From assembly GCA_021414085.1 (NCBI GenBank), contig JAIOPC010000010.1, positions 62,001-126,000 of the forward strand: a DNA stretch of 64,000 bases, read 5' to 3'. Below the pieces are notes generated by a model. The model was not told the DNA's origin and searched no databases. It saw nothing but the letters and a program-made list of their open reading frames with translations. Position 1 is the stretch's first letter; the number at the start of each line of letters is the position of its first letter. The translations under genes were made by a program, and so were the position numbers. Shown here in pieces: positions 7,926-42,770 of this stretch. Source of the DNA: Actinomycetes bacterium (GTDB lineage: Bacteria; Actinomycetota; Acidimicrobiia; Acidimicrobiales; Ilumatobacteraceae).

Positions 7926-9311
7926 ATGCAGAAATCCCGCATGCGCCAGGTAGGCGCATTGCTCGTAGGACTGGCCCTTGTGGCCGCGTCCTGCGGCGAC
8001 GACAAGAAGGACTCGACCGACACGGCCGCGCCCACCACTGTCGCCGACACAACCGCCGACACGACTGCCGACACGACAGCCGATACCACGGCTCCTGCCG
8101 GTGGCAGCGAGCTGGCCGGCATGAAGGGCACGACTCCGTTGCTCGAAGTGAGCCAGGACTTCAAGGATCGTCTGGCCACCACTCCGACCGCAACCGCTGC
8201 GGCACTCACCGACTACAACTACGCGGCCGAGTCTTACGACGCGGTCGTCGTCATCGCGTTGGCAGCCGCTCTGGCTGGCACCGACGGTTCAGCGATGGCC
8301 GATGAGATCGTCGGCGTCACCAAGGACGGCGAGAAGTGCACCACGTTCGCCGACTGCGCCGCAATCATCGAAGCTGGCGGCGACCCCGACTATGACGGTC
8401 AGTCCGGCCCGATCTCACTGAACGGCAACGGCGAGCCCCTCGAGGCCAGCTACGGCGTTCTCACGTTCGGCGAGGGCAACCAGATCGACGATTCGCTGAC
8501 CACCTACATCACAGCTGCGGCTCCTGAGTCGGCTGCCAAGCCGCTCACCACGACCGACGTTGTGCGTGAGGGCGACGGCGTTCTGAACATCGGTGGCCTG
8601 CTGCCGCAGACCGGCAACCTGGCATTCCTCGATCCGCCGGAAGAAGCGGGTGTTGAATTGGCAATCGCCGAGATCAACGAGGCAGGCGGCGTTCTGGGTG
8701 CCGATGTCACGTACTCGCCTGGCGACTCGGGTGACACCACGACCGACATCGCAAGCCAGACGGCCGACCGTTTGATCGCAGAAGGTGTCGACGCCATCAT
8801 CGGCGCCGCCTCCTCCTCGGTCACGCTGACCGTGATCGACAAGATCACTGCAGCTGGCATCGTGCAGTACTCGCCGGCGAACACCTCGCTGGCCTTGGTC
8901 GACTACCCCGACCACAGCCTGTACTTCCGCAACGCACCGCCGGACGACCTGCAGGGCAACGTCATCGCCCAGCTCGTCATCGACGACGGCAACTCGTCGG
9001 CATACCTGTTGGTTCGCAACGACGCATACGGCACCAGCTTGTCCGGTGTTGTCGAAGCTGCGCTCACCGCTGGTGGCGTGGAAGTTCTCGGCGTGAAGCT
9101 TTACGCCGAGGATGCTCCGAGCTTCGATGCTGAAGTTGACGAAATCGTTGCTGCCGATCCGGACGCGATCGTCTTGATCACGTTCAACGAAGGCAGCCGC
9201 ATCCTGAAGACCATGGTGGAGAAGGGCATTGGCCCGGCCAACAAGGCGGTCTACGGCTGCGACGGCAACATTGGTAACGCTCTCGGCGACGACTTCAACG
9301 CCGGTAAGTGA
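7926..9311 (+). CDS. ABC transporter substrate-binding lipoprotein, circularly permuted Peripla_BP_6/LivJ-like domain
   Basis: A 461-residue secreted lipoprotein: signal peptide ending AASC (lipid Cys23), a Thr/Asp-rich linker with TTAD repeats at 40-57, then a Leu/Ile/Val-type periplasmic binding domain. The order is unusual. Residues 61-200 (ELAGMKGTTPLLE, NYAAESYDAVVVIALAAA, DGEKCTTFADC, YGVLTFG) correspond to the C-terminal part of LivJ-like proteins. Residues 216-461 (GVLNIGGLLPQTGNLAF, EINEAGGVLG, GAASSSVTLTVID, RNDAYGTSL, YGCDGNIGNALGDDF) correspond to the N-terminal part, and the protein stops at NAGK, where the family would normally continue into the segment found here at residue 61. 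It has its own promoter and Shine-Dalgarno (AGGGGGAG) and converges on livFGMH, its likely partners. Ligand unknown; branched-chain amino acids or amides are the family norm. Confidence 0.88.
   Translation: MQKSRMRQVGALLVGLALVAASCGDDKKDSTDTAAPTTVADTTADTTADTTADTTAPAGGSELAGMKGTTPLLEVSQDFKDRLATTPTATAAALTDYNYAAESYDAVVVIALAAALAGTDGSAMADEIVGVTKDGEKCTTFADCAAIIEAGGDPDYDGQSGPISLNGNGEPLEASYGVLTFGEGNQIDDSLTTYITAAAPESAAKPLTTTDVVREGDGVLNIGGLLPQTGNLAFLDPPEEAGVELAIAEINEAGGVLGADVTYSPGDSGDTTTDIASQTADRLIAEGVDAIIGAASSSVTLTVIDKITAAGIVQYSPANTSLALVDYPDHSLYFRNAPPDDLQGNVIAQLVIDDGNSSAYLLVRNDAYGTSLSGVVEAALTAGGVEVLGVKLYAEDAPSFDAEVDEIVAADPDAIVLITFNEGSRILKTMVEKGIGPANKAVYGCDGNIGNALGDDFNAGK
8043..8090 (+). repeat. Four tandem 12-bp units encoding the lipoprotein linker
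   Basis: GCCGACAC(A/G)AC(C/T/A) recurs three times, with a fourth diverged copy GCCGATACCACG, encoding repeated A-D-T-T. Such tethers between lipid anchor and binding domain are common in actinobacterial lipoproteins and vary readily in copy number. Confidence 0.8.
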
Positions 9312-9356: not shown

Positions 9357-9392
9357 GAAGGCCCCGGGCGCAAGCCCGGGGCCTTCTTCGTT
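9357..9392. terminator. Strong intrinsic terminator between convergent transporter genes
   Basis: A perfect 13-bp stem, GAAGGCCCCGGGC and GCCCGGGGCCTTC, closes on a GCAA tetraloop and is followed by TTCGTT. Being symmetrical, with an A-rich flank on the other side, it may also stop livHMGF transcription from the minus strand. Confidence 0.85.
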
Positions 9393-9475: not shown

Positions 9476-10252
9476 TCAGCCGCCGGTGGCTTTGGCGAGC
9501 GTGCCGAGATACAGCTCGATCACCGCCGGGTCTGCCAGCAGCTCGCGACCGGTGCCGGTGTAGGCGTTGCGGCCCTGATCGAGCACGTAGCCACGATCGA
9601 TCACCTGTAGACAACGCCGAGCATTCTGCTCGACCATCAGGATCGCGATACCCGTCTTGTTGATCGTGCGGCAGTTCAAGAACACCTCGTCCTGCAGCAC
9701 TGGCGACAGACCCGCGGAGGGTTCGTCGAGCAGCAGCAGCTTGGGTTCCATCATCAATGCCCGGCTCATTGCCACCATTTGGCGTTCGCCACCCGACAGC
9801 GCTCCGGCACGTGTATGCCGACGCTCGAGCAACCGCGGGAACAAACCTGTGACGTAGTCGAAACGCTCACGGAACACCTTGGGACGCAGGTAGCAGCCCA
9901 TCTCCAGGTTCTCAGTGACCGTCAGACTCTGGAACACGTTCTTGTTTTGGGGCACATAACCGACACCGCGAGCCACTAGCTCGTGGGCCTTGTGCCCAGT
10001 GATGTCGTCGCCCTCTAAACGGATATGCCCGGACCGCACGGCGCACTGGCCGAGCACAGCCTTCAGGATCGTCGACTTGCCGGCCCCGTTTGGCCCGATG
10101 ATGCCCACGAACTCGCCAGCGTTCACCAAGATGTTGCAGCCGTTGAGGATGTTGACCTCGGGTATGTAACCCGCGACCAGCTCCTCGGCGATCAGGATCG
10201 GACCAGCAACTTGAGTTGCCGTTGCCGTTGCCGATGAGGTCTCGTCGGTCAC
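9476..10252 (-). CDS. livF: Branched-chain amino acid ABC transporter ATP-binding protein LivF
   Basis: A 258-residue ABC ATPase of the LivF type, one of two ATPases driving the LivHM permease. After a Thr/Ala-rich N-terminal tail of about 15 residues come Walker A (GPNGAGKS), the Q-loop YVPQNKNVF, the signature LSGGERQ, Walker B with LLLLDEPSAGLSP, and the His-switch replacement MVEQNARRCL typical of LivF. It is last in the livH-livM-livG-livF operon and its start overlaps the livG stop (ATGA). Confidence 0.93.
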   Translation of the reverse strand: MTDETSSATATATQVAGPILIAEELVAGYIPEVNILNGCNILVNAGEFVGIIGPNGAGKSTILKAVLGQCAVRSGHIRLEGDDITGHKAHELVARGVGYVPQNKNVFQSLTVTENLEMGCYLRPKVFRERFDYVTGLFPRLLERRHTRAGALSGGERQMVAMSRALMMEPKLLLLDEPSAGLSPVLQDEVFLNCRTINKTGIAILMVEQNARRCLQVIDRGYVLDQGRNAYTGTGRELLADPAVIELYLGTLAKATGG

Positions 10253-11130
10253 AGGTCCTCCAAGAATGACTTGCCTTGATGAGCGCCCAAGTAGGCGTCG
10301 ATCACGGCGGTGTTGGATGAGATCTGATCGGGCGTGCCCTCGGCGATGATGCGACCTTCGGCCATCACGATCACCCAGTCGGAGAGATCGTGCACCATGT
10401 CCATGTCGTGCTCGACGAACAGCACCGTCATGCCCTCGTCGCGCAGCCCGCGAATGTGATGGTTCAGGCTTTGCTTGAGCGCTGGGTTGACACCAGCCAT
10501 CGGCTCGTCGAGCATCACTAGTTGCGGTTTGGTCATCAGCGCACGCGACATCTCGAGCAACTTGCGCTGACCGCCCGAGAGTGTGCCGGCGTACTCGTTG
10601 CGCATGTGCTCGAGCGAGAAGCGGCGTAGCAGTTCATCGGCACGGGCTTCGATTTCATGCTCTTGTGCACGCCAGCGGAACGGTAGAACTCCGTTCCACC
10701 ACTTCTCGCCGGTCTGACCAGTTGCACCGAGCTTCATGTTCTCGATGACTGACATCTTGGTCAGGCTCTTGGTGAGCTGGAACGTGCGCACCATTCCCAT
10801 CGCAGCGGTCTTATGAGCGGCGACCTTTTCTAGCGAGTTGCCGTTGAAGCTCCAAGTGCCGGTGTCGGGCGTGTCGAAGCCCGTCATCAGGTTGAAGAAC
10901 GTGGTCTTGCCCGCCCCGTTTGGGCCGATCAGGGCGGTGATTGACCCGCGCTGGATCTCAACGCGATCGACATCGACTGCCACGATGCCGCCGAACGAGC
11001 GGCGAACACCGGCAGCCGTCATGATGGGGTCCGGCTTCTCGGCACCCGGCGTGGCGGGGACGACGGACAGCGCTTCGCGAGCAACGACCGTGGCCGCGCT
11101 CGGTTCGACGTGAGGGGCTTCAGCGGCCAT
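10249..11130 (-). CDS. livG: Branched-chain amino acid ABC transporter ATP-binding protein LivG
   Basis: A 293-residue ABC ATPase, partner of LivF. It has Walker A GPNGAGKTT, the LivG-type TFQLTKSLTKMSVIENM segment, signature LSGGQRKLLEMSRAL, Walker B VMLDEPMAGVNP and the switch VEHDMDMVHDL. About 45 poorly conserved residues precede the core. ATG 11130 is taken as start; it overlaps the end of livM by 11 bases, and in-frame alternatives further upstream lie deeper inside livM. ATGA coupling links its stop to livF. Confidence 0.93.
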   Translation of the reverse strand: MAAEAPHVEPSAATVVAREALSVVPATPGAEKPDPIMTAAGVRRSFGGIVAVDVDRVEIQRGSITALIGPNGAGKTTFFNLMTGFDTPDTGTWSFNGNSLEKVAAHKTAAMGMVRTFQLTKSLTKMSVIENMKLGATGQTGEKWWNGVLPFRWRAQEHEIEARADELLRRFSLEHMRNEYAGTLSGGQRKLLEMSRALMTKPQLVMLDEPMAGVNPALKQSLNHHIRGLRDEGMTVLFVEHDMDMVHDLSDWVIVMAEGRIIAEGTPDQISSNTAVIDAYLGAHQGKSFLEDL

Positions 11131-12325
11131 CGAGCGCCATCTCCTTGCGGTTGCCAAACAGGCCCTGTGGTCGGAAAACCATCAGCAGCACGAGCATGAG
11201 TCCGAGTGCGATCTGTACGTAGGCGCCAATTTGGCTTGAGCTGCTGATGACCGGAATGCCCAGAATCTCCACCTTGCCGCCCCAAGCTTTGGTCAGCTCG
11301 TTGAGAAAAACACTGACGAACTGGCTGAGCCCCCAAAACAGCATTGGGCCGACTATGGAACCGGTCACCTTGGCCAGCCCACCGAGGACGAGGGCGGTGA
11401 GTACAAAGAACGTCGTGTCACGGCTGTAGTTGTCGGGCTGTACCGAGCCACGTGACAGCGAAAACATCATGCCGGCGAAGGTCGCGATGGCGCCGCCGAG
11501 AATCAGCGCCTGCAATTTGTACGAGTAGATGTTCTTGCCCAGGCTGCGCACGGCTTCTTCGTCTTCTCGGATGCCCTTCAGGACACGACCCCATGGGCTG
11601 CGCATGAGCATGTAGACGAGAAAACCAAGGACGAAGACGATCAGCCAGCCGACAATAAGCGACTTGAAGCCAAGACCGCCGTACTGAGTTTTCTTGGCAC
11701 CGAGCATCACGACGCCGAACATGACGAACGGCAAGGTTGTGCGCAACGCCTTGTTGCCGCTGCGGATACGTTCCGCAACAATTCGCCCGAGCATGACTGA
11801 AGCACCAGCAAAAATGCCCAGCAGCAGGATGCGACCAAACAGGTTGACGCTGTCGTCGAATGGCCAGAGCGAATACTTACCGGACGTATTGAACGGCGTC
11901 GCCTCAATGAAGGTTGTGCCGAATTGATTGATGCCGTCGCTGGCGTTGAAGTACTTCTTAAACGTCACGGCGCGCACGATGACACGCACCAGTTCCGCCA
12001 ACGCGATGGTGACGATAGCTAGGTAGTCCGCGCGCAATCGCAACGTTGGTATGCCCATGATGAGGCCGAACACGGTCGCGTACGCGATCGCCATCGGGAT
12101 ACCCCACCAAAAGCTGATGTGCCAGTAGTGCGCTGTCATGCCAATGGCGTAGGCGCCGCAAGCCATAAAGCCTGCCTGGCCGAAGTTCAACAACCCGCTA
12201 TACCCGAACTGCACATTCAGGCCGATGGCGGCGATCGCGAAATACATCGCATCGACTCCAAAGACCGCGGTGAGCGTCGCCGTAGCGATCTGCTCCCAAT
12301 TGACGTTCGAAAATGCTGCCAGCAT
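11120..12325 (-). CDS. livM: Branched-chain amino acid ABC transporter permease LivM
   Basis: A 401-residue inner-membrane permease with about ten hydrophobic segments. It shows the LivM-type YSGLLNFGQAGFMACGAYA near residue 45, TLRLRADYLAIVTIALAEL, the cytoplasmic coupling segment SPWGRVLKGIREDEEAVRSLG near 245, and the terminal MVFRPQGLFG. It carries an insertion of about 40 residues around positions 140-180 compared with compact LivM proteins. It forms the channel with LivH, whose gene lies 12 bases upstream. Confidence 0.92.
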   Translation of the reverse strand: MLAAFSNVNWEQIATATLTAVFGVDAMYFAIAAIGLNVQFGYSGLLNFGQAGFMACGAYAIGMTAHYWHISFWWGIPMAIAYATVFGLIMGIPTLRLRADYLAIVTIALAELVRVIVRAVTFKKYFNASDGINQFGTTFIEATPFNTSGKYSLWPFDDSVNLFGRILLLGIFAGASVMLGRIVAERIRSGNKALRTTLPFVMFGVVMLGAKKTQYGGLGFKSLIVGWLIVFVLGFLVYMLMRSPWGRVLKGIREDEEAVRSLGKNIYSYKLQALILGGAIATFAGMMFSLSRGSVQPDNYSRDTTFFVLTALVLGGLAKVTGSIVGPMLFWGLSQFVSVFLNELTKAWGGKVEILGIPVISSSSQIGAYVQIALGLMLVLLMVFRPQGLFGNRKEMALDGR

Positions 12326-12337
12326 GACGACCCCTCC

Positions 12338-13696
12338 TCAGCCCACTCGCTCGCGCCGACCGAGGATGCCCTGCGGTCTCACCAGCAACACAATGATCAT
12401 TGCCACGTACGCGGGCACGACTTTCAGCTCCGACGGCACTCCGTCGTGCAGCCAATTGAAAGGCGCCGGCAGGCTGCCTCCAGGCGCGATCGGCACCCCC
12501 ATCGTGGAGGTTTCCACAAACAGACCGATCACGAAACTCCCGACAAGCGCACCGTACGCGGAACCCAAACCGCCCAGGGTGATGCCCGCGAACATCAAGA
12601 ACAGCAGGCCACCACCGAGAAACGGCGACGCACTTTCATCGAGACCACGGAAGATGCCACCGGCCGCGGCCAGCATGCCGCCGACAAACCACACGATGCG
12701 AATGATCTTCTGGCTGTCGATGCCCGTTGATGACGCCATGTCGGCATTGTCGCTAACCGCTCGCGTCGCCTTACCGATACGGGTCTTTTGCAAAGCGAGG
12801 CCAACCAGGACCAGCAGCACAAGCGAAATGACAGCGGTCGTCGTCTCGCGTGGGGTCACGCAAACGGGACCGAATTTCTTGCACACCTGATTGTTGAACG
12901 ACGCGAACGTCTTGGGCCGTGCGCCCATGATGCGGAGAAAGACGTTCTTGAGAATGATCGAGATTCCGACGCTCACGATCATCTGCGAAATCAGTCCAAT
13001 TTTCCGCTTTCGCAACGGGCCATAGACCACCTCGTTGTTGAGCAGTCCAAACAGCCCGCCGGCGACGACCGCGATTGGTGCTGCGAGCAACAGCAAACTC
13101 AGATTCTGCTCAGTGTTGAGGATGTACGCGACCATTGCCCCGAACGTGACCAACTCGCCATGCGCGAAGTTGGTGAGGCCGGTGGTGCCGTAGATCAACG
13201 ACAAACCGACAGCGCACATCGCCAAGATCAGACCGAAACGGGCGCCGTCGGCAGTTCGCTGGGCTAACTGCGTCCAGTAGCCCACTGAGGTGCGGTCGGC
13301 GCTGCCGGTGAAATAGTTGACTGTCACCGTGTCGGTGACGAAGTTCGCCTCGCTGATCGTGTGTTCCGGCGCGCCGTCTGAGAGGGCGAAACCTTCGGGC
13401 AACGTCGATTCATCGAGGGTCACCGTGTAGTTCGCCTTTGCAGGCACCACAATCGCCACGACGCCGGTGGCGTCGGTGAGCCCTTCCCCGACCACCGTGC
13501 CATCGGCACCGGTGATCGTTATCTGGACGCCCGCAACTGGCTCCTTCTTGCTCTTACCGGTCGTGGCGTCTTGCACCTGGTTCTGCACACGCACCTTGAT
13601 GGTGATGTCGGCGGCGCGCGCAGGCTCAGCAAACATCCCAAGCAGCGCCAGGCCCAGCAACAGCAGGCCTACAAGATGTCGTGGTCGTAAGTTCAA
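12338..13696 (-). CDS. livH: LivH-type permease with an N-terminal signal peptide and Ig-like extracellular domain
   Basis: A 452-residue protein from TTG 13696, preceded by AAGGGG at good spacing. Residues 1-28 are a signal peptide ending PARAA. Residues 29-135 are soluble and beta-rich (VAGVQITITGADGTVVGEGLTD, then TLPEGFALSDG), resembling a prealbumin/carboxypeptidase-regulatory or SpaA-type fold. From about 150 a normal LivH permease follows: GLSLIYGTTGLTNFAHGELVTFGAM, ISIILKNVFLRIMGARPK, AVSDNADMASSTGID and the terminal LLVRPQGILG. LivH proteins normally lack such an ectodomain. First gene of the livHMGF operon, divergent from an EamA transporter gene. Confidence 0.9.
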   Translation of the reverse strand: MNLRPRHLVGLLLLGLALLGMFAEPARAADITIKVRVQNQVQDATTGKSKKEPVAGVQITITGADGTVVGEGLTDATGVVAIVVPAKANYTVTLDESTLPEGFALSDGAPEHTISEANFVTDTVTVNYFTGSADRTSVGYWTQLAQRTADGARFGLILAMCAVGLSLIYGTTGLTNFAHGELVTFGAMVAYILNTEQNLSLLLLAAPIAVVAGGLFGLLNNEVVYGPLRKRKIGLISQMIVSVGISIILKNVFLRIMGARPKTFASFNNQVCKKFGPVCVTPRETTTAVISLVLLVLVGLALQKTRIGKATRAVSDNADMASSTGIDSQKIIRIVWFVGGMLAAAGGIFRGLDESASPFLGGGLLFLMFAGITLGGLGSAYGALVGSFVIGLFVETSTMGVPIAPGGSLPAPFNWLHDGVPSELKVVPAYVAMIIVLLVRPQGILGRRERVG

Positions 13697-38238: not shown

Positions 38239-40773
38239 TCACAGAAACGGACGGGCAAGCTCGGAGTCGTACAGCGCCGAAACCTGCGCTCCGTCCGCCA
38301 CCGCAACCGCCTGCCGGGTTGCGGCTGACTGCAGATCCAGCACCCGCAGCGTTCCATCGCTGGCCTTGGCGATCGACTCAATTCGCACGTACGAAGTTCC
38401 GTGCTGCTCGGCGTAGTTCGCAAGGCCCTGCAATTTGGCAGCCGCATCGGCCAGGTGGTCGCTATGAGGGTCGACGATCGAGACCCCGAGCGTTTCATCG
38501 TCCTTCCGGGAGACCACGAGGAAATCGACTTGCACGGACCCCCAATTGCCGGCGTCGTCTTTGTAAGCAATCCGCAGTGACGATGGCGTTGGTCGCGCCG
38601 GGTTCCGATACCACGCGACGAACGTCGGCCGCGCAACTTCCGCAGCAATCACCGCGCTTTCCCAGCCGTTGAGATCGGCCGGGAACTTGCCACCCGCACC
38701 TGAATACAGGTGACCGGAGTACGTCGGCAAATCGTCGCCCTTGCCGGTTCTCGTAGCGGCGACAAGGTTGTTGCGCAAGTCAACTGAGACCAATTCGGGA
38801 AGCGATGTTTGCTCTTGCACGCGGCGATAGGCGTCGCGCGCCGCGCCGGTCGTGTTCTTGATGTCGACAGCGAATTGCGCAAGCCGATCCTGCACCCACT
38901 TGGTTGCCTCGGCCTCCAATTGCGCTACAACACCGCCGACCAGGAACAGCGCAGCGCAGGCGACGCGCACGTCGAGTCGGTCTTCATCATCACCCGCGCG
39001 TCGGACGCAGTAGGCGAAGTAATCCTTGCCGACACCTTCTTTCACCGAGTTGATGAGTCGTCGCGTGTCGCGCTCGATGTCGGCGAAGTGAGTTGCAACT
39101 TCGTGGGACGTTCGGCGCGCTTCGCCCGCTCCTATCGCGGGGACGAATGTGCGCGCCAAGCTCGCTGTCTCGATGTTCTTGATGTTCGCTGCGACCTCGT
39201 CGGCGTACTGTGCTGCCAAACCATCGAGCTTTGCCATCAGTGCCTTGGTGAGCTTCTTGCCGGCGTCGGGCAGCAATGCAGCACCCGACGCAGTGTCGGT
39301 GAGCAGTCGCGTGAGCTCCTTGGCCCGCCGTAGTGGGCTGGCCAGTACGTCGGGAGCTGGCAGCGATGGCAGAGCAGCGATCGCGGAGAACGCAGCTGCA
39401 TCTATGTGCGGGTTGCGCTCGAACACCTTTGGTGCTCGCACAACTGATGGCCCCACTCCCACTTCCGCGCCGCCAACCCCGACTCCTTCCAGTTCGGCCT
39501 TGATCTGCTCGAGCGCCGTGCGGTCGAACAATGGCAGGAAGCAGGCGACGGAGTTGAGAACGTCGTCGGTAGCGATGCGATGTGTGAGCGGCGACCGCAC
39601 CATGCGCCCGATGACCTGCGCAATGTGAGTGACGTCCTTCGCTGGCCGCTCGCTATAGAGCACCTCCGCGCGCGGGCAATCCCAACCTGTGGAGATTGCT
39701 GTCTTGGCAAGTACCACACGCACGTCACGGTCGCCCTCAATCGACTCCGGCTGCACCCAGTCCACTGCTCGGCCACCTAGATGCAAACGCTCGTGCTCGC
39801 CGAACACATGGGCGATCGCGTCAGGACCAAGGCCCGACCATTCCGATTCGATGACGGAGATCAGGTCCGTGAGGTGCGCTTCGCTGGCCTTGTCGGCTAC
39901 CTGCACCACTAAAACAGGTTGAACCAGAGGTTCGTCCTGCTCGACGGAGTACTTCGCCCAGCGTCGGTCGTAGTCGACGGTGGCCTTCACTGCTTCGCGC
40001 AACAGGGTGTTGCCAAAGACACCCTTCTCGTCGGGTTCATCCAAACCGATCTCGTCTTTCACCAGACCGGATGAACGGACCTTGTCGATGTCAACCTCCA
40101 CGTACGGATAACTGGTCCTGTCCGTAACGCCCTTCATCGCCGCGGTGAAGCGGGCGATGGTGGCGGAGATTCCCCACACCACCGGCACGGCCGAGTTGGG
40201 TCCGGCACCACCGGAGATGATCCGCTGCACGATCGTGTCGCGATCGGACGAACGTTGCATGCCTCGATGAGCTTCATCGAGCACCAAGTAAAGGTCGACA
40301 GTGCCACTGGCGATGGTGTTTGCGAGCACTTCCCACATTGAGTACTGCCGCAAGTTGCGACCGCCGCGTGACAGCCCAGCCGACTTAGAGAGCTTCTGCG
40401 TGTTCAGGAAGTAGACGCGGCCCGCCGACAGCGACGAATCCAGAAAGTCGTCATCCAGAATCCTGATCCGAGCCGGCTGCATCAGATCCGATGACGCAAG
40501 CATCTTGTTCTTCGTTTGCCGGTTTAGCGCTGGGTCGTCGGTCACCCACAAGAAGGCAGCCCGATTGTCGGGTTCGACTTGGAGATCGGCGGAGCCGTGA
40601 AGTATTGCCTCAATCACAGCGGTCGCGATGACGGTCTTGCCTGCGCCGGTAATGGCGGACAACGCGAAGCTGGAGCGGCTGCGATCCTCGCGCCAGTCGC
40701 GGCGCCCCTTGGCCAGCCGACTCAAACAGCCCAACGCCGCGTCGCGTTGATAATCAAACAGTTGAAACTTCAC
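38239..40773 (-). CDS. Type III-like restriction enzyme subunit (DEAD/DEAH helicase with C-terminal nuclease-like region)
   Basis: An 844-residue protein starting MKFQLFDYQRDAALGCL. Superfamily 2 helicase motifs: Walker A TGAGKT at 42-47, DEAH at 166-169, VVWGISAT motif III, and motif VI TAISTGWDCPRAE with IAQVIGRMVRSPL. The C-terminal 100 residues hold VQVDFLVV (Asp750) and SIVDPHSDHLADAAAKLQGL, positioned like a PD-(D/E)XK nuclease but with Asp-Pro-His in place of Glu-x-Lys. It overlaps mod (ATGA) and presumably cleaves DNA with it. It ends 78 bases from the convergent molybdoenzyme gene; that gap holds nothing I recognise. Confidence 0.88.
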   Translation of the reverse strand: MKFQLFDYQRDAALGCLSRLAKGRRDWREDRSRSSFALSAITGAGKTVIATAVIEAILHGSADLQVEPDNRAAFLWVTDDPALNRQTKNKMLASSDLMQPARIRILDDDFLDSSLSAGRVYFLNTQKLSKSAGLSRGGRNLRQYSMWEVLANTIASGTVDLYLVLDEAHRGMQRSSDRDTIVQRIISGGAGPNSAVPVVWGISATIARFTAAMKGVTDRTSYPYVEVDIDKVRSSGLVKDEIGLDEPDEKGVFGNTLLREAVKATVDYDRRWAKYSVEQDEPLVQPVLVVQVADKASEAHLTDLISVIESEWSGLGPDAIAHVFGEHERLHLGGRAVDWVQPESIEGDRDVRVVLAKTAISTGWDCPRAEVLYSERPAKDVTHIAQVIGRMVRSPLTHRIATDDVLNSVACFLPLFDRTALEQIKAELEGVGVGGAEVGVGPSVVRAPKVFERNPHIDAAAFSAIAALPSLPAPDVLASPLRRAKELTRLLTDTASGAALLPDAGKKLTKALMAKLDGLAAQYADEVAANIKNIETASLARTFVPAIGAGEARRTSHEVATHFADIERDTRRLINSVKEGVGKDYFAYCVRRAGDDEDRLDVRVACAALFLVGGVVAQLEAEATKWVQDRLAQFAVDIKNTTGAARDAYRRVQEQTSLPELVSVDLRNNLVAATRTGKGDDLPTYSGHLYSGAGGKFPADLNGWESAVIAAEVARPTFVAWYRNPARPTPSSLRIAYKDDAGNWGSVQVDFLVVSRKDDETLGVSIVDPHSDHLADAAAKLQGLANYAEQHGTSYVRIESIAKASDGTLRVLDLQSAATRQAVAVADGAQVSALYDSELARPFL

Positions 40774-42770
40774 GTTGACTCACCGCGATTGATCGCAAAG
40801 GTCGAAAGGTAGTTCTCGTAGAGCCGTACAGGTTCGACGCCTGAGGGAAGGGCCTCGGCCACGCCCGCGAACACAGACGGCGAGTCGGTCACCACGAACA
40901 CAATGACCACCGTCGCAGGCAACGCGGCAACGAACTCGCGCCAACGATCGGCATCGAAGAGCACGGCGTATCGATCGGTGCAATCGAACGCAACGGGTAC
41001 GTCGTCAACGTCGGCGAGCCGCTGAATCATCTCGCCCTGTCCGCCAGCACGCATCCACAGCAGCGGAGCGATCGCCGCGAAAGCCTGGTCCAACTCAACG
41101 TCAACCGGATCTTGGTACGTCAGCTTCATGAACCGCACGTTCTCATCAAAGCCGCTTGAGTGCACGCTGCCGTCCTCGCGTAGGCCCACAGCGGCGATCT
41201 CAACGCGCGGGCGAGTGACCGACTCGAACAATCCTTCGGCCTCCCAACCGGGGTCCCCGTCCTTCAATCCCTCAACAGCCAACCGCTTCGCGGCGGCCTC
41301 ACTGACCTCATTGTTCGTGACGAGGATGCAGGAACGAGAGCCGCCATCGGATCGGTTGAGTTCCATCACCGCGTGACAGGTCGACCCTGAGCCTGCGAAG
41401 AAGTCGAGTACGACTGCGTTCTGCTTGTGATCTGACGCGATGCTGATCCAGCGGCTCAACACTGAGGTGTCTTTGGGGAACTTGAATCGCTCGTCCCCCA
41501 ACAAGGCCCTTAGGGCGGTGCTCGCACTCGTGCGCTTTTGCTGGAATACAGACTCTGGAACCATCGAGTCCGCTTCATCTAGGTAAAGCTTGCGATTGAT
41601 GTACTCCGTGTGATCCGCTCCAAAGAGGATTTGGCCCGCGAGGATCATCTCCTGCATACGCTCGGGCGTCGAGTACCGCCACCCCCGTCCAGGTACGCGC
41701 ACGGGCAGGCCAGTCACGGGGTGTAACACGTCATAACGGGGCCCACCCGCCCCCGGCCATGACACATTGTCCTTTCGGAACTGCCGTCCCGTGCCACTAT
41801 CGAACTCATAAAAGCGGTTGTTCGCTTTGGCAGGGTGGCCAGGTGGTAACGCCTTGATCCATTCCTTCATCAACGCAGTGGCGTTTGCCGGATCGCCACC
41901 GGACCTTTCCCAGCACGCCCGTCCCGCAGCAAGCATTTCCTCCTGCCCGGGCCGTGGGACATCCCACTCGACTCCTGCGTCGATCAAGTCTTGTTTCGAG
42001 CGCGCGTAGATGAGCATGTAGTCATGGCCGACGGATACGAAACGAGCATCGTTCTTGCGTCCACCATGCCAAACGACACATGCAATGAAGTTCGGCTCGC
42101 CGAAAATCTGATCAAGCAACAAACGAAGGTGCGCCTGCTCGGTGTCATCTATCGCGACAATAAGCACGGATTGCTCGTGCATTAGCGACTTCGCCAACTT
42201 CAGCCGACGGTCCATGAATGACAGCCACTTCGAGTGGCGAAAGGCGTCATCCCTCGCGACGCGACGGTCGTTGTAGATGAGATCGCCGCCAAGGTTGTAG
42301 GGCGGGTCGATGTAGATGCAGTCGATCTTGCCCGCGTGCGTGAACTGCAACATTTCAAGAGCGTGGTGGTTCTCGGCGTTGATCACGATGTGGGCCGGCT
42401 TGTCACCCCCGCGGTCTACTGAACCGAGTTGGGTGAGCCCCGGGTAAATCGGCTCACCGAACTCGGCGGTCACGACCAGTTCGGCGACGGGAACCGAGGT
42501 CGCGGAACCGTCCGCAGCGTTGACCGTCGCCTGTCCCCGACTTACGTTGTCGACCGTTCCTTGAAACCCGTCGTCGCCTTCGTCGCGACGAACAACGTTC
42601 ACACCGCGCCGAACCGGATGATCGTGTAGTCGCACTCGTTCGGGCAAATGAGACTCGAAGACCAAGCCGAACGAACGCTTCGCCCGCACGCGGTCGACCG
42701 CAATCCGTAGCTCTTCACGCAAGGCCGCACTCTCGACCTTGCCGAGCAGAACATCAAGTTCGTCAGCCAC
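40770..42770 (-). CDS. mod: Type III-like DNA N6-adenine methyltransferase (Mod)
   Basis: A 666-residue beta-class methyltransferase: the catalytic motif DPPYN is at 155-159, ahead of the SAM motif FAGSGST at 458-464, with about 290 residues between them for target recognition. Features such as HHALEMLQFTHAGKIDCIY, FMDRRLKLAKSLM and IDDTEQAHLRLLLDQIFGE are standard for type III Mod and related enzymes. Both site and phenotype are unknown. GTG 42770 has GGAG upstream. It is the first gene of the mod-res operon, divergent from the RelA/SpoT gene. Base composition is visibly lower in G+C than the flanking operons. Confidence 0.92.
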   Translation of the reverse strand: MADELDVLLGKVESAALREELRIAVDRVRAKRSFGLVFESHLPERVRLHDHPVRRGVNVVRRDEGDDGFQGTVDNVSRGQATVNAADGSATSVPVAELVVTAEFGEPIYPGLTQLGSVDRGGDKPAHIVINAENHHALEMLQFTHAGKIDCIYIDPPYNLGGDLIYNDRRVARDDAFRHSKWLSFMDRRLKLAKSLMHEQSVLIVAIDDTEQAHLRLLLDQIFGEPNFIACVVWHGGRKNDARFVSVGHDYMLIYARSKQDLIDAGVEWDVPRPGQEEMLAAGRACWERSGGDPANATALMKEWIKALPPGHPAKANNRFYEFDSGTGRQFRKDNVSWPGAGGPRYDVLHPVTGLPVRVPGRGWRYSTPERMQEMILAGQILFGADHTEYINRKLYLDEADSMVPESVFQQKRTSASTALRALLGDERFKFPKDTSVLSRWISIASDHKQNAVVLDFFAGSGSTCHAVMELNRSDGGSRSCILVTNNEVSEAAAKRLAVEGLKDGDPGWEAEGLFESVTRPRVEIAAVGLREDGSVHSSGFDENVRFMKLTYQDPVDVELDQAFAAIAPLLWMRAGGQGEMIQRLADVDDVPVAFDCTDRYAVLFDADRWREFVAALPATVVIVFVVTDSPSVFAGVAEALPSGVEPVRLYENYLSTFAINRGEST

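Follow-up and report, generated by a model that had tools for sequence, protein, structure and literature searches.

A circularly permuted LivJ-type binding lipoprotein beside a liv operon, and relatives of both domain orders at the same place

The binding-protein gene and the liv operon

The window, by which we mean the whole stretch of 64,000 nucleotides analysed here, contains a gene for a LivJ-type substrate-binding lipoprotein whose two domain segments stand in exchanged order (Table 1). The motifs that the initial annotation had quoted from its product were found in the translation at the residues given for them, and the proposed layout held, while the boundaries had to be adjusted: Cys23 is the lipobox cysteine, and the domain itself begins near residue 63. 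The gene had also been described as more than a simple truncation, and this agrees with an intact frame over 7926-9311 and a domain that is complete after rotation. Cys23 is identical in 15 of 15 permuted proteins aligned. In the same 15 proteins residues 316-321 and Asp446, both inside segment 214-461, are invariant, and we take them to be the counterparts of the LivJ ligand site, a putative assignment in which ligand binding by the present protein is expected from its family.

Table 1. Features of the permuted gene and the neighbouring operon (positions in the window)
Feature	Position	Strand	Basis or remark
Permuted LivJ-type substrate-binding lipoprotein gene	7926..9311	+	461 aa and stop; ATG to TGA; frame intact
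Signal peptide, residues 1-22, lipobox ahead of Cys23	7926..7991	+	Assigned by eye from the translation
Cys23 and Thr/Asp/Ala-rich tether, residues 23-60	7992..8105	+	Translation; pLDDT <50 over residues 1-58
Residues 61-198, corresponding to the C-terminal segment of canonical relatives	8106..8519	+	PF01094 263-349; 59% identity with the canonical G041 protein (C-terminal part)
Linker, residues 199-213, from old C-terminus to old N-terminus	8520..8564	+	Placed between both homologous segments
Residues 214-461, corresponding to the N-terminal segment of canonical relatives	8565..9308	+	PF13458, E 1.8e-35, piece alone
New C-terminus at the cut, residues 454-461	9285..9308	+	Low model confidence
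Perfect inverted repeat of 13 bp with loop GCAA, lying between the convergent genes	9357..9386	+	Read from the sequence; possible terminator
LivF-type ATPase	9476..10252	-	PF00005
LivG-type ATPase	10249..11157	-	PF00005 and PF12399
LivM-type permease	11120..12325	-	PF02653
LivH-type permease with N-terminal SpaA-like domain (about 13334-13561)	12338..13696	-	PF02653 and PF17802

The gene is associated with LivHMGF through a livF-livG-livM-livH operon (9476-13696, minus strand), to which it is convergent. The inverted repeat between the two was absent from the terminator-scan output. The SpaA-like domain of LivH is of the prealbumin fold and stands ahead of the membrane part.

A binding-protein gene convergent to livF within 2.5 kb was found in 35 of 47 entries of group A, the permuted group to which the window protein belongs (contig L058/L196 entering this count twice), in 35 of 45 canonical entries and in all 4 entries of family f142. 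The other 12 group-A entries comprise five at the end of a locus, six without liv genes in reach and one with liv genes elsewhere. Permuted and canonical versions therefore lie mostly at one place, beside one operon. The SpaA-LivH fusion is common to all 74 loci whose LivH scores above 300 bits, at permuted and canonical genes alike (contig L058/L196 again counted twice), and hence marks this transporter; a link between permutation and the fused LivH was considered and rejected, since the fusion occurs whichever order the binding protein has. The SpaA-like domain may be an extracellular docking part. Given the same place, the same operon and the same SpaA-LivH, it is the binding protein that was re-wired, and the transporter is unchanged.

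Exchanged segments and predicted structure

In the 461-residue lipoprotein, the C-terminal third of the LivJ/Peripla_BP_6 domain (about residues 61-198) comes ahead of the N-terminal two thirds (214-461). Against the whole protein, PF13458 matched only residues 221-445 (model positions 3-225 of 343), and a score of 120.5 bits against a gathering cut-off of 31.7 places the protein in Peripla_BP_6 by homology. PF01094 matched the whole protein in two separate stretches; residues 61-211 alone aligned with positions 263-349 of 353, the C-terminal end of that model, at E 1.3e-4 and 21.6 bits, which is under the curated cut-off of 25.4 for the family. When the protein was rotated (214-461 followed by 61-213), PF01094 ran through from 4 to 349 as a single stretch and PF13458 from 3 to 310. 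The colinear order of the canonical domain is thus seen only after rotation; without it no full colinear match exists, and the exchange goes well beyond what chance would give. The initial annotation had expected PF13458 to return its C-terminal hit ahead of its N-terminal hit; a full colinear match is indeed lacking, but PF13458 hits the N part only and the C part is recognised through PF01094.

Comparisons with single proteins lead to the same arrangement. The rotated sequence is colinear with LivJ of Streptococcus pneumoniae (4gnr) over query residues 7-327, and in a profile of the 15 permuted proteins residues 216-446 correspond to 7-232 of the 4gnr chain, whereas residues 53-121 correspond, weakly (10.9 bits), to 242-307. 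In the canonical relative of genome G041, query residues 215-458 are matched at 40586-41320 with 55% identity and residues 61-210 immediately afterwards, at 41327-41764, with 59% identity (E 4.9e-41). Within alignment error, no domain residues were lost through the permutation. The run-through of both models after rotation, the swapped profile blocks on 4gnr and the G041 comparison bear out the original description of a circularly permuted Peripla_BP_6 lipoprotein: the window protein is a permuted derivative of the LivJ type and not an ordinary member of it.

AlphaFold2 models of the window protein and of the canonical relative L061 reached mean pLDDT values of 79.3 and 81.9, the core of the former being mostly confident, and their strands and helices are nearly identical once the window protein is rotated. 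In the window model the last strand (441-445) and a helix (448-452) close the chain and the first strand lies at 67-71; in the L061 model strand 248-252 leads into strand 269-273. Solved LivJ-type structures align to window residues 217-461 with Z of about 14-17, residues 61-198 being outside the aligned range. The canonical region near residue 250 we take to be part of LivJ lobe 2, just before the chain returns to lobe 1. On this assumed topology the models place the new N-terminus and its lipid anchor probably in lobe 2, and since the cut sites of both kinds described below would fall in that lobe, the anchor would sit on lobe 2 instead of lobe 1.

Spread, permuted groups and routes of origin

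In a first set of relatives, where some loci represent the same genes reached twice, both segments share one frame; L018-L032 and L047-L060 have them in exchanged order, and L002, L005, L033-L046, L061 and L062 are canonical. Within the family of the window, matches at E<=1e-40 came from 125 of 221 genomes. Counted by hand, 83 of these 125 are permuted, in agreement with the expectation that related genomes would show the same order; 40 match by the N part only and are taken as canonical, and two (G113, G118) hold fragments only and are in neither class. Matched genomes numbered 51 of 397 in an order sample and 53 of 396 in a phylum sample overlapping with it, with 19 and 7 permuted, respectively, by hand count. 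In all these hand counts, a permuted protein is one matched from query residue <=62 to >=361 and the canonical class consists of rows with the N part only, the order itself being read only where the locus was fetched; the match in G099 consists of two N-part fragments. No genome among the 125 of the family held a permuted and a canonical form together at E<=1e-40, with at most 7 candidates scored per genome. The nearest relatives of the window protein share 91% and 84% identity with it. Against four relatives, dN/dS lies between 0.10 and 0.19 in the N part and between 0.13 and 0.32 in the C part, from which we conclude that the permuted gene is under purifying selection.

Three permuted groups, assigned to that class by domain order alone, can be distinguished: A, which includes the window protein, B (G692 and G928) and C. 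Mapped on canonical L033, the cuts are at about 247/247 in A (65 proteins), 245/247 in B (2) and about 225/226 in C (56), positions that scatter somewhat where the alignment enters the tether and for which L029, at a contig end, was left out. Groups A and B are cut at one and the same loop. In group C the chain begins about 21 residues upstream of this, which makes the strand carrying the YGTDGN motif N-terminal. Within genus g363, group C was found in 73 genomes among those listed, as one piece in 72 and as two pieces in G979 (20 of the 41 genomes without a match are listed, none of them of g363). Within family f142, both parts were spanned in 57 of 69 genomes among those listed, counting a match from residue <=59 to >=490 as permuted; the listed misses (20 of 50) include nine of f142, and G1150, G1151 and G1156 are fragments. 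In g363 (L185, L275-L287) none of 14 stretches has a livF-type gene scoring above 250 bits near the group-C gene.

The gene of group B lies on the other side of the operon, where it is divergent from livH and not convergent to livF. In whole-length trees group B pairs with canonical L207, to which it is also nearest in both half-trees. Relatives of canonical G858, which are not among the tree rows, were matched by the query in canonical order only.

For the trees, clustering at 85% identity reduced 276 segment pairs to 108. Leaving out 26 of these (long branches, near-copies of g363 and a few others) gave an 82-row tree, and leaving out 12 more (three outgroup rows, five of g363 and four divergent rows of group A) a 70-row tree; a 69-row tree came from a fresh selection clustered at 80%. 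In AU tests, a single clade of all permuted proteins was rejected (lnL 112.2 lower, p 1.1e-5), as were clades of A with B (lnL 98.8 lower, p 8.9e-5) and of B with C (lnL 82.5 lower, p 2.6e-5), although the last two p values are weakened because B and C were named after the first tree. Group A alone as a clade was not rejected (p 0.40). Nor was a clade of A with C, for which p was 0.124, 0.182 and 0.196 in three row sets, the third with the displaced residues of C returned to their columns; hence C may belong to group A, its cut having shifted.

When the distant outgroup is left out, each of A, B and C forms one group at 100/97 or better (A at 100/98), and three changes of order are needed across the 5-95% range of bootstrap trees, in the 70-row and again in the 69-row set. 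With distant paralogues included, the outgroup is placed within A, the canonical clade is nested in A and four changes are needed. We attribute this placement to long-branch attraction, given that the AU test does not reject A as a clade (p 0.40) and that A is recovered at 100/98 once the outgroup is removed. The tree of the C half is weakly resolved; A is split in two there, and the starred branches force two changes only. As judged from these trees, the permutation apparently has more than one origin: the AU tests show that groups A and B form no single clade, two origins are well supported, and a third, with A and C separate, is favoured on the trees together with the different cut.

Tandem copies were found in several lineages. 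Nonomuraea gerenzanensis has three canonical genes in tandem (L375 6822-12120, plus strand), convergent to a liv operon of the same type, and G277 and G348 have two canonical copies each. Permuted tandem copies are present in G393, where the contig ends within one of them, and in G236 (L170 7998-11603, minus strand), where two divergent permuted copies lie in a 17.9-kb stretch without liv genes. Intermediates with one segment twice in a frame were absent among 122 sequences at the thresholds used. It is plausible that the permuted genes originated by tandem duplication followed by loss of the outer halves. For each permuted group, a canonical gene would have been duplicated in tandem, the N part of the first copy would have been lost in frame, the remainder would have fused over the gene border to the second copy, and a stop would have arisen in the C part of the latter.

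Beside its permuted genes, G393 carries at the same locus a very divergent binding protein of canonical order (L191 8203-9555, minus strand). A distant Chloroflexi frame of 857 aa (L068 4734-7304, plus strand) has two Peripla_BP_6 domains and represents a fused tandem binding protein. Plasmid records of Nonomuraea and Arthrobacter show the canonical order; on the plasmid of Arthrobacter sp. StoSoilB13 (L376 7713-9114, plus strand), the canonical gene is split over two frames, by sequencing error or decay.

Function, alternative readings and known systems

The window gene very probably encodes a two-lobed, lipid-anchored binding protein of LivHMGF with a LivJ-like domain that was permuted in place through duplication, separately in groups A and B, and with a relocated anchor. 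The chain starts at the strand that opens the last third of the canonical domain and runs to the old C-terminus; a linker of about 15 residues leads from there into the old N-terminus, and the chain ends where it began. According to this reading, it would still form the usual two-lobed clamp, closing on an amino-acid-like ligand, by family probably an amino acid or amide, which would be passed to LivHM. The main consequence of the permutation would be the move of the membrane anchor from lobe 1 to lobe 2. The initial annotation suggested that hinging of the lobes or docking on the permease may be altered. Most likely the protein works as an ordinary lipid-anchored binding protein apart from this relocation, and most likely its partner importer is the neighbouring LivHMGF.

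An artificial swap of the halves by misassembly, or a decaying pseudogene, might be suspected in a draft genome of 18 contigs. The same order, however, occurs in 97 group-A genomes (hand count over the family and order samples), the frame is intact and dN/dS is 0.10-0.32, and with an order common to so many relatives both explanations are ruled out for practical purposes. Another view is that the domain was permuted only once, with B and C derived from A by a shift of the cut, horizontal transfer and sequence change, or with the canonical proteins representing reversals. The nesting of the canonical clade in A when the distant outgroup is included and the AU results for A with C (p 0.124-0.196) would fit such a history, whereas the rejection of A with B and of B with C, and the affinity of B to canonical L207 in both halves together with its divergent position across the operon, speak against it. 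Moreover, a distant paralogue and the LivJ proteins of solved structures have the canonical order, so that a reversal would amount to a second permutation, returning to the ancestral order. We consider a single permutation unlikely and prefer repeated origins.

Whether the repeated permutation brought a benefit is a separate matter. There may have been three or more in-place permutations of the domain, two of them at the same loop and one about 21 residues off, with the canonical gene replaced each time because relocation of the anchor changes how the protein meets the permease; we hold this reading tentatively, as possible but somewhat short of an even chance. That the recurrence was neutral, with frequent tandem duplication, few loops that tolerate termini and hence a similar cut recurring without benefit, comes close to an even chance. 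Neutral recurrence agrees with tandem copies in several lineages and with cuts that all fall in one region, but the 83 family genomes with the permuted form have no canonical orthologue at E<=1e-40 (at most 7 candidates per genome), which suggests replacement without being proof of benefit.

The locus offers a natural experiment on how binding proteins tolerate re-wiring, in which relatives of 55-59% identity have both orders at one locus with the same transporter and tandem copies are possible intermediates. Since both orders occur at one locus, the events apparently repeated and tandem copies exist, two questions become directly testable. One is how circular permutation comes about and is fixed in nature; the other is whether import depends on where the binding protein is attached to the membrane.

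LivJ/LivK-type HAAT proteins (PF13458) resemble the window protein in their homologous domain, their lipoprotein nature, their position adjoining livFGMH and their near-identical structural elements; the window protein differs by its swapped segments, its new termini, probably in lobe 2, and the linker of about 15 residues joining the old termini. A tethered type I binding protein that is naturally permuted, as here, is already known in TpMglB-2 (Tp0684) of Treponema pallidum, a glucose-binding lipoprotein assigned to 'Cluster Bc', whose authors had raised the possibility that anchoring favours permutation (PMC4990184). According to the same paper, that protein belongs to the sugar-binding MglB family, its N-lobe strands are rearranged with a fourth hinge crossing, and its permuted part is poorly conserved in sequence (PMC4990184). 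In contrast to TpMglB-2 as described there, the segments of the window protein keep 55-59% identity to a canonical relative, with both orders at one locus, and its cut lies not in the N-lobe but between 441-445/448-452 and 67-71, presumably in lobe 2. None of the matches listed from open-licence literature describes a naturally permuted LivJ-type protein, a cut like the present one, its recurrence or two orders sharing a locus. Permuted halves of ribose-binding protein (PMC9815098) have the same general fold but were engineered and are not natural orthologues.
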